The notes below the pieces were generated by a model. That model did no database searches and was not told where the DNA came from. It saw only the letters and a program-made list of their open reading frames with translations. This document shows, one piece after another, positions 27,682 through 29,623 of a DNA stretch of 33,732 nucleotides (positions are counted from its first letter, which is position 1; each line of letters opens with the position of its first letter). The position numbers were made by a program, and so were the translations under genes. The stretch comes from Terriglobales bacterium. Its GTDB lineage: Bacteria > Acidobacteriota > Terriglobia > Terriglobales > Acidobacteriaceae. The stretch is taken from positions 1-33,732 of the forward strand of contig DATIGQ010000132.1 of the NCBI GenBank assembly GCA_035454605.1. The letters are read 5' to 3'.

Positions 27682-28452
27682 ATGCGAAAGATGGTGCTGC
27701 TGGGACTGGCGATTCTTCTCTGCGCGGCGAACGCGCTGGCCGCACCCGAGGGCAAACCCACGCGCGTGATGGTGCGCGCGGTCTCGCGCGACGCCAAGAT
27801 CCTGGGCACACACGTGGGCGGAGCGCGCATCACCATCCGTGACCTGGCCACCGGAAAGACGCTGGCGGAAGGCGTGCAGGAAGGCGGGTCAGGAGACACC
27901 GACCGCATCATGGTCGAGCCCCGTCGCCGCGGTGCTGCCGTTTACGACACTCCCGGCGCCGCCGGCTTCCTGGCCACCGTCGCCCTGGAGCGTCCCACGG
28001 TGGTGGAAATCAGCGCGGAAGGGCCGCTCGGCCATCCCCAGGCCACGCAGCGGGCCACGAAAACACTCCTTCTCGTTCCCGGAGAGGACATCCTCGGCGA
28101 TGGCGTGGTGCTGGAAATTCACGGATTCATCCTGCAGTTCGTTGATCCCGCCGCGGACGTGCATGTGAAGACGGGGGATCCCATCCCGGTGCGCGCCACC
28201 ATGACCATGACTTGAGGGTGCCCTACGGAGCCCGGCGGGCTCTGGGACGCCAACAAGATCCGCCTTGTCGCGCAACTGGTTCGGGAAGGGAAGGTGGAGG
28301 TGGAATCGGTCTTGGCCTACGCCGGCGAGAAGAGCACGTACTCGGGAACGCTCCAGGCTCCCGCAGCCGGCGCGTACGAGTTACGGCTATTGGCAATCGA
28401 TTCTGCCAACACGAACTTCGGCATGAACTCGCGCAAGCTGGTGGTCGAGTAG
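27682..28452 (+). CDS. Probable exported selenoprotein of unknown family (TGA read as selenocysteine at residue 178)
   Basis: Starts at ATG 27682 after AAGGGGG. The first part is a signal peptide (MRKMVLLGLAILLCAANALA) and a ~155-residue region with beta-rich character (RITIRDLATGKTLAEGV; DTDRIMVEPRRRG). An in-frame TGA at 28213-28215 follows ...VRATMTMT. The same frame then continues for 78 codons (GCPTEPGGLWDANKIRLVAQ... to ...SRKLVVE) and ends with TAG at 28450-28452. By hand count 64 of these 78 third positions are G or C, like the neighbours. The tail resembles an Ig-like beta domain (YSGTLQAPAAGAYELRLLAID). A bacterial-SECIS-like stem-loop follows the TGA. Without read-through the protein would be 177 residues and lose this domain. 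Predicted motif U178-G-C180. Alternatives: a recent nonsense mutation, or a sequencing error. I know no function; a metal or redox role is inference from the U-x-C pair. Confidence 0.72.
28213..28215 (+). other. In-frame TGA, putative selenocysteine codon
   Basis: TGA between an ACT codon and GGG-TGC, residue 178 of the exported protein. It is followed by continuous coding sequence in the same frame and by a hairpin. Selenocysteine next to G-C would give U-G-C. The selenocysteine machinery (selA, selB, selC, selD) is not in the window. Confidence 0.68.
28222..28246 (+). promoter_or_regulatory. Putative bacterial SECIS stem-loop
   Basis: An upper stem of eight pairs (28226-28233 with 28237-28244: CGGAGCCC with GGGCTCTG, one G-U) carries a three-base apical loop GGC (28234-28236). 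Below it, a bulged UA (28224-28225) is followed by two more C-G pairs (28222-28223 with 28245-28246). There are 18 bases between the TGA and the loop. The bacterial SECIS model needs a G in the first two loop positions, an upper stem of at least ~4 pairs and a loop roughly 16-37 bases from the TGA; all hold here. A bulged U is also present in the E. coli fdhF element. Confidence 0.65.
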
Positions 28453-28453
28453 C

Positions 28454-29557
28454 TTAGCTCCTCGGCCCATGCCCGGCCAGTTGCGCCAGGGTTGCTTCGG
28501 CTTGCGCCACGATCTCCGCCACGATCTCAGCTGCGCCCTGATCGGACTTGAGCAGCCGCACCGCTTGTCCTGTCAGCAGCGGGTAGAGATCGGCATCACC
28601 GGCAGCGATGGCACGGGCATAGAGGTCGCCGGCAGCCAGTGCCTGCAACGGCCATGCCAGGGGCTCGACCTTGGCAGCGAGCAGAGCGTCGAGTACCCGG
28701 TTATGAATGCCGCGAGCGGGCCGGCCGGTGAAGGCCCGGGTGACGACGGTGGCAGCTTCGTCCGCCTCGAGCACTCTCTGCTTGTACGCAGGAAAGGCGG
28801 CGCTTTCGCGCGCCACCAGGAAACGCGTACCCATGGCGGCTCCGGCAGCGCCCAGCGCCAGCGACGCCACCAGGCCGCGGCCATCCGCAATGCCGCCTGC
28901 CGCCACCACCGGGACGCGCACGGCGTCCGCAACCTGCGGCACCAGCGCCATCGTTCCCACCAGCGCCGCCTCACCGTCGGGGCCCAGCCGAAATGTCGAG
29001 CGATGCCCGCCGGCCTCGGCACCTTGCGCCAGCACGATGTCCACACCCGCCCCGGCTACCGCCTGGGCCTCCGCCACCGTGGTCACCATCGCCATCACCT
29101 TGGCGCCGGCTGCGTGTGCCGGCTCGACCAGCGGCGTCGGATCTCCCATCGCCGTGCTCAGCACCGGCACCCTCTCCTCGAGGATCACCTGGATCTGCTG
29201 CTGGAGTTGGGAAGGCGGCAGGGCTGGCGCGTCGCTCACTTCCGGCAACTTCAGCTCGCGGCGCAAGTGGTTCAGGACTTGCTGCACAGGCACGGCGTCG
29301 CGGTTGCCTGGCTCGGGCGGTGCCAGTAAGACATTCACGCCGAACGGGCGATCCGTTCGCTCCCGCACCGCACGGATCTGTTTTCGCACATCTTCCGGCG
29401 CAACGCGGAACGCCGCCAGCACGCCGAAACCGCCGGCCTCACAGACGGCCGCCACCAGCTCGGGAGTGGTCGGCCCGCCCGACATCGGCGCCTGCACCAG
29501 CGGATAACGCACACCCAACAGGTCGCAGAGCGGCGTGTGCAGAGCGTGTTTTTCCAT
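28454..29557 (-). CDS. Nitronate monooxygenase-family FMN enzyme (2-nitropropane dioxygenase/FabK-like)
   Basis: A 367-residue TIM-barrel flavoprotein. It starts MEKHALHTPLCDLLGVRYPLVQAPMSGGPTTPELVAAV. FMN phosphate-binding residues are in VPVVAAGGIADGRG and ALGAAGAAMGTRFL. The catalytic histidine is in AQGAEAGGHRST. Family members oxidise nitronates or, in the FabK branch, reduce enoyl-ACP; which applies cannot be decided. ATG 29557 is preferred over the adjacent GTG because GAGGTGA lies just upstream. Its stop is one base from the end of the convergent putative selenoprotein gene. Confidence 0.88.
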   Translation of the reverse strand: MEKHALHTPLCDLLGVRYPLVQAPMSGGPTTPELVAAVCEAGGFGVLAAFRVAPEDVRKQIRAVRERTDRPFGVNVLLAPPEPGNRDAVPVQQVLNHLRRELKLPEVSDAPALPPSQLQQQIQVILEERVPVLSTAMGDPTPLVEPAHAAGAKVMAMVTTVAEAQAVAGAGVDIVLAQGAEAGGHRSTFRLGPDGEAALVGTMALVPQVADAVRVPVVAAGGIADGRGLVASLALGAAGAAMGTRFLVARESAAFPAYKQRVLEADEAATVVTRAFTGRPARGIHNRVLDALLAAKVEPLAWPLQALAAGDLYARAIAAGDADLYPLLTGQAVRLLKSDQGAAEIVAEIVAQAEATLAQLAGHGPRS

Positions 29558-29623
29558 CACTCACCTCGAAGAGAGAGGGAATTCCGGAATGCTACTCGTA
29601 ACAGAAAGGAAGGAGCCAGCTGG

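Follow-up and report, generated by a model that had tools for sequence, protein, structure and literature searches.

The window, by which we mean the whole 33,732-nucleotide stretch analysed here, carries on its plus strand an ATG-initiated frame at 27682–28452 that holds a single in-frame stop, a TGA at 28213–28215 (codon 178, after 177 codons), followed by 78 codons and a TAG at 28450–28452. The positions and the length of the open tail agree exactly, on recount, with an earlier interpretation made from the letters alone (hereafter the sequence-only reading), as does its figure of 82% G or C at third codon positions after the TGA: GC3 is 0.79 before the TGA and 0.82 after it. The next gene is convergent, on the minus strand at 28454–29560, and its end at 28454 leaves the single base 28453 between the two genes, the spacing that this reading had described. 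A gene caller would end the gene at the TGA, as it had also foreseen. The features of the locus are as follows.

27682–28452, plus strand: whole candidate selenoprotein gene, ATG to TAG, 256 codons with the TGA read as selenocysteine (Sec); full-length homologs without internal stops
27682–27741, plus strand: probable Sec/SPase I signal peptide, residues 1–20, ending in A-L-A; identified by eye, a low-confidence N-terminal helix in the model
27745–28122, plus strand: predicted domain 1, residues 22–147, a beta-sandwich resembling the transthyretin/Cna-B type (AlphaFold2 alone, pLDDT 90.8)
28123–28449, plus strand: predicted domain 2, residues 148–256, an Ig/FnIII-like beta-sandwich that holds the TGA codon (AlphaFold2, VIA-align)
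28213–28215, plus strand: putative Sec codon TGA, residue 178; TGA in 11 inspected genomes, Cys in 18
28217–28251, plus strand: bacterial SECIS-like hairpin, minimum free energy (MFE) −23.3 kcal/mol over 28213–28260
28219–28221, plus strand: Cys180, the third residue of the U-G-C motif, unchanged across the 28 rows; past the signal peptide, the window protein has no other Cys
28228–28233, plus strand: 5′ side of the upper stem, GAGCCC, conserved
28234–28236, plus strand: apical loop GGN, 18 nt past the TGA
28237–28242, plus strand: 3′ side of the upper stem, GGGCTC, conserved

The window is GC-rich, and 247 of its 1,137 stop-to-stop runs are at least 78 codons long. Because open runs of this length are common, the openness of the tail is insufficient by itself for the claim, and what raises the frame above chance is homology, in the form of full-length proteins with Cys at position 178 and ten further genomes with TGA at codon 178.

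In a first sample of 100 genomes, which like the class and phylum samples below includes the window's own genome (G000), two genomes matched, G000 and G002. The G002 gene, the one match among 58 genomes from other genera of the same family, is uninterrupted and 46% identical; the sole congener sampled, G001 (99% complete), has no match to the gene, whose distribution is patchy. A named genome collection gave one matching contig, from a Candidatus Latescibacterota MAG, again uninterrupted and with 42% identity. Both proteins have C-G-C-P in place of the window's U-G-C-P, the very substitution that the sequence-only reading had held would be decisive. Wider sampling found matches in 9 of 399 genomes of the class and 19 of 396 of the phylum, as well as in 4 of 80 genomes of the phylum of the Latescibacterota MAG, none of the latter with an internal stop.

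Across the 29 homolog genomes whose motif was inspected, a set that leaves out the three new matches from the phylum of the Latescibacterota MAG, codon 178 is TGA in 11 (12 loci) and Cys in 18, within a common motif [U/C]-G-C...W. The TGA genomes (G000, G238, G332, G775, G582, G589, G536 twice, G448, G678, G575 and G568) span seven family labels. Homologs continue past the site instead of ending at the TGA, and the recurrence of the codon in 11 genomes (12 loci) in practice rules out a sequencing error. In the 28 aligned rows, P133, G148, C178 (where U is written as C), G179, C180 and W188 never vary, and N245 and G247 hardly do. The Sec/Cys position is preceded, two residues earlier, by Met in most members and by Leu in G448, G678 and G575.

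G332 and G568 have copies that are either truncated or diverged, and both G536 copies reach contig ends. At the G332 locus (L028, 1495–1962) a C-terminal domain with its TGA stands without a recognisable N-terminal domain or a good start codon, behind a gene that we take to resemble phosphoglycerate mutase; this copy is either a truncated gene or an assembly join. The G536 copies (L039 and L048) are very similar to each other, and each sits at the end of a contig in a single draft genome; they represent either a duplication or unmerged strains.

Between G000 and G238, dN/dS is 0.24 before the TGA and 0.29 after it. Ten pairwise comparisons of TGA genes give ratios of 0.25 to 0.56 after the TGA, mostly slightly above those before it; some of these ratios are pN/pS, with synonymous sites near saturation. 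The weakest constraint after the TGA is a pN/pS of 0.56, between G000 and G582. These values indicate that the tail is under purifying selection.

AlphaFold2, run with U entered as C and 28 sequences, models the full read-through product with a mean pLDDT of 93.4, and each block from residue 171 on reaches at least 95. The tail, which the sequence-only reading had called a plausible beta-domain, is placed by the model in an Ig-like domain. Compared with solved Ig/FnIII domains by VIA-align, domain 2 gives Z up to 11.7, with 92 residues aligned at 2.7 Å; a Foldseek search with the whole model returned 37 matches at E <= 0.001. Domain 1 is matched best by an S-layer protein (Z 10.4; 1.7 Å over 87 aligned residues), followed at Z of about 7 to 8 by CnaB and transthyretin, a resemblance that may reflect merely a common arrangement; Foldseek with domain 1 alone found no match at E <= 0.001. 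Sec178 lies directly after the second strand of domain 2, so that a stop at this codon would leave a broken domain.

Two readings in which the TGA terminates translation can be weighed at this point. In one, the codon is a nonsense mutation or a sequencing error, and the locus a pseudogene or a gene for a 177-residue protein, in line with the halt of a gene caller at the TGA and with two related copies, those of G332 and G568, that look truncated or diverged; set against a TGA shared by 11 genomes (12 loci), a tail apparently under purifying selection and an Ig-like domain that would be severed after its second strand, we consider this very improbable. In the other, recoding is regulated, with UGA acting as a stop at low selenium and the 177- and 256-residue products both functional. 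Sec insertion is generally incomplete, which speaks for such an arrangement, but the short product would retain just two of the Ig-like domain's strands, the Cys homologs encode the long form only, and we judge regulated recoding to be unlikely.

Downstream of the TGA, the RNA is predicted to form a hairpin of the kind that directs Sec insertion in bacteria. The bacterial SECIS (bSECIS) model, as given in a 2026 selenoprotein inventory, places a G in the loop's first two positions, with the loop 16–37 nt away and a stem of 4–16 bp with an MFE <= −7.5 (PMC13188914). The window hairpin agrees with this model: its stem has 7 bp, the GGC loop lies at a distance of 18 nt, and the energy is −22 to −26 kcal/mol. 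Its fold has a z of −2.75, 3 of 200 shuffles being equally stable. Our bSECIS filter is passed by 261 of the 772 TGAs in the window and by 21.6% of synonymous recodings, and a fold at least as stable as that of the window hairpin occurs at 4 of the 772 TGAs and in 9% of the recodings. The bSECIS rules are permissive and weak by themselves, and we do not count them as proof.

Comparison between genes is more telling. The six pairs of the upper stem are intact in 72 of 72 cells of the 12 TGA loci, versus 54.2% in the Cys loci (12 of the 18 were used). G775 has swapped one G-C pair for C-G, changing both sides, with Glu becoming Gln and Leu kept through another codon. Covariation is slight, limited to this one pair and reached by 38 of 500 shuffles; it is weak because the stem hardly varies, and a comparison of synonymous sites was used instead, counting codon pairs where two genes share the amino acid. 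At the four stem codons, synonymous identity is 191/210 in TGA genes versus 71/168 in Cys genes, and at codons 183, 184 and 186 all 155 of 155 codon pairs in TGA genes are identical. Elsewhere in the gene, identity is 1550/4386 in TGA genes and 3186/6533 in Cys genes; none of 20,000 random four-column draws from the TGA genes matches the stem value. With the stem codons frozen in TGA genes only, the RNA itself, beyond the protein, is held constant. At the loop codon 185, 18 of 55 pairs are identical in TGA genes, which indicates that this constancy spares the loop base left free by the bSECIS model.

The restriction of this constraint to TGA genes also bears on whether the TGA is read as tryptophan through a changed code, or passed by general read-through. 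TGA is the stop of 13 of the 28 window genes taken as clear, so it is still an ordinary stop here, and the codon would be a case of Sec recoding of one codon and not of an altered code; the homologs, moreover, have Cys at the site and not Trp. Nothing that we observed favours either form of this explanation, which seems to us scarcely credible.

The genome has the means to decode Sec. It encodes a tRNA-Sec with anticodon TCA (69 bits) together with SelB (384 bits), SelA (542 bits) and SelD (374 bits), the full set that the sequence-only reading had said to look for. Its SelD gene, on contig C104 (L020, 3168–4094), has an in-frame TGA of its own, with Sec in G-U-A-S-K, a further indication that the genome decodes Sec; SelD shares the in-frame TGA with the window gene but is an unrelated enzyme with its own sequence context. 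The main SelA match stops near the end of contig C6, and another, short SelA-like piece (L019, 57.8 bits), which corresponds to the C-terminal part, is found at C150 25082–25285, at the edge of its contig; SelA of this genome is perhaps one gene split across contigs. A tRNA-Ser with anticodon TGA (L016, 2850–2937, contig C199) scores 1.1 bits above the Rfam gathering score for tRNA-Sec, and the Rfam threshold alone would yield a false second tRNA-Sec.

SelA exceeds the cut-off in 8 of the 11 TGA genomes and in 13 of the 18 Cys genomes, so having the Cys form does not imply a lack of Sec decoding. The TGA genomes with no SelA over the cut-off are G536, G678 and G568; G536 and G568 have SelB over the cut-off, and G678, which is 72% complete, has just a SelB-like stretch of 146 bits that falls below it. 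Five Cys genomes have no SelA over the cut-off: one of them, G484, has SelB over the cut-off, and the other four, all of family f7, have neither SelA nor SelB over it. In the tree, these four Cys forms group with G000 and G238, both Sec forms, in a single fork (drawn open, support 93/93). The topology requires four changes between Sec and Cys, of which strongly supported branches force just one. This pattern fits a replacement of Sec by Cys upon loss of decoding, without proving it, and the four f7 genomes offer a natural comparison for what Sec contributes.

Machinery, exchange of Sec for Cys, frozen hairpin codons and selection on the tail together support the central claim of the sequence-only reading, that of a new selenoprotein. 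None of the three findings that this reading had named as grounds for rejecting it was obtained. On this sequence evidence, 27682–28452 very probably encodes a selenoprotein in which codon 178 specifies Sec. At UGA 178, SelB with Sec-tRNA(UCA) would insert selenocysteine under the direction of the hairpin GAGCCC-GGN-GGGCTC, which has its loop, starting with G, 18 nt downstream. The 256-residue product, with two beta-sandwich domains of which the second is Ig-like, would then be exported. Export had been part of the earlier claim; the signal peptide recognised by eye speaks for it in the window protein, which is probably exported, whereas some TGA relatives seem to have none. The genes of G448, G678 and G575 seemingly start directly at domain 1, and the location of the protein may therefore vary within the family.

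Sec is usually a catalytic or metal-binding residue, so Sec178 pinpoints the likely functional site of this uncharacterised family. In the mature window protein, Sec178 and Cys180 are the only thiol or selenol residues and lie just after the second strand of domain 2; with no other Cys past the presumed signal peptide, Sec178 could pair with nothing but Cys180 or a partner molecule. Sec178 and Cys180 may act as a U-x-C redox pair that forms a reversible selenenylsulfide at the loop end of domain 2, and given a selenoprotein, we rate the chances of such a pair as roughly even, ahead of any other role. The Ig topology brings the loop that follows strand two and the loop that leads into the last strand to the same end, so that U178-G-C180, W188 and N245-x-G247 may, in the predicted fold, form a single site.

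On the same question of function, Sec178 and Cys180 might, instead of forming a catalytic redox pair, serve as ligands of a metal or metalloid such as copper, mercury or arsenic. The Met found two residues before Sec/Cys in most members suits such a role, and several known selenoproteins are thought to be heavy-metal binders, according to the accessible text of the inventory (PMC13188914). Against it, the 28 rows contain no further invariant Cys or His beside the motif, and none of the seven neighbour proteins scanned belongs to a metal-resistance family. We give this possibility a minority share, though a real one.

Whichever role applies, one wider reading, to which as a whole we give even odds, places the family outside the thioredoxin-fold mainstream. 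On this reading, the family would present a new U-x-C redox or metal centre at the loop edge of an Ig domain, following a second beta-sandwich; a SECIS inside the codons of E-P-G-G-L would fix motif and RNA together, and lineages that lose Sec decoding would turn to Cys and free these codons.

No family-wide partner gene was seen in the 14 regions viewed by eye. A sodium:solute symporter gene coupled to the Sec gene was seen in G448 and G678 only (loci L040 and L041, with L054 2689–4098 and L055 2151–3569). The stop of the Sec gene abuts the symporter start in G448 and overlaps it in G678. We regard this coupling as a lead and not a rule.

The findings add to the known selenoproteins a family whose Sec form occurs in 11 genomes and whose Cys form in 18, with a clear Sec/Cys pair, and they show that SECIS conservation can be read from synonymous sites. 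They also mean that gene callers halting at the TGA drop the half of the protein that carries the motif.

The sequence-only reading had recognised no known family in the protein, and profile searches bear this out. The whole window protein has nothing in Pfam or NCBIfam at E up to 1. A search of PDB sequences gave one match (E 0.4), and PHROGs and PADLOC gave none. For the 28 members, Pfam at E <= 0.1 gives scattered weak matches only: GlgE_dom_N_S in 2 of 28 (best E 0.0039) and nine other families in one member each, fn3 among them (0.007). NCBIfam at the same threshold adds one member matching TIGR00319 (best E 0.0089) and one matching TIGR01710, and nothing else. FixH (PF05751) was considered and rejected, since its match to the isolated tail (E 0.15, 12.5 bits against a cut-off of 23) is absent when the whole protein is used.

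In its accessible part, the 2026 inventory lists 119 selenoprotein families or subfamilies, among which DUF1573 and a TlpA-like family have the motif UGC, and thioredoxin-like, Cu/Zn-efflux and CoA-disulfide-reductase families have UxC or UGxP (PMC13188914). None of the entries in that part fits the window protein, the inventory's hypothetical families without a motif being compared just so far as the NCBIfam library covers them (PMC13188914). Within the accessible portions of the lists in PMC2398784 and PMC9312934 and of the new families in PMC12013277, no entry is recognisable by name or motif. Searches of the open-licence PubMed Central literature turned up no report of this selenoprotein family, which does not prove absence. 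Most likely, then, judging from sequence comparisons, the family is new and absent from the lists compared.

Its listed motif UGC made DUF1573 an analogue worth comparing, and an Ig-like fold is attributed to DUF1573 as well. The DUF1573 (PF07610) selenoproteins, as described in the accessible parts of two sources, share the motif UGC with the window protein and likewise have no known function (PMC13188914, PMC9312934). Unlike them, the window family does not match PF07610 (0 of 28 members at E <= 0.1). A profile comparison with 14 DUF1573-matching domains gave no match (probability 0.1%), but those loci showed no CGC, and the comparison therefore says little on the UGC subgroup.

The FAD-dependent CoA-disulfide reductase (TIGR03385) is listed in the accessible inventory text with a motif UGxP that U-G-C-P matches letter by letter (PMC13188914). 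TIGR03385 matches neither the window protein nor any of the 28 members, and the window protein has 256 residues and an all-beta model. The UGC-containing TlpA/Prx-like selenoprotein (pfam00578, cd02966), for which the GOS table gives 46 Sec and 855 Cys forms, has both the U-G-C spacing and the Cys homologs of the window family (PMC2398784). Its domain is thioredoxin-like, whereas the window protein has no Pfam match to PF00578/cd02966 and is modelled as two beta-sandwiches.
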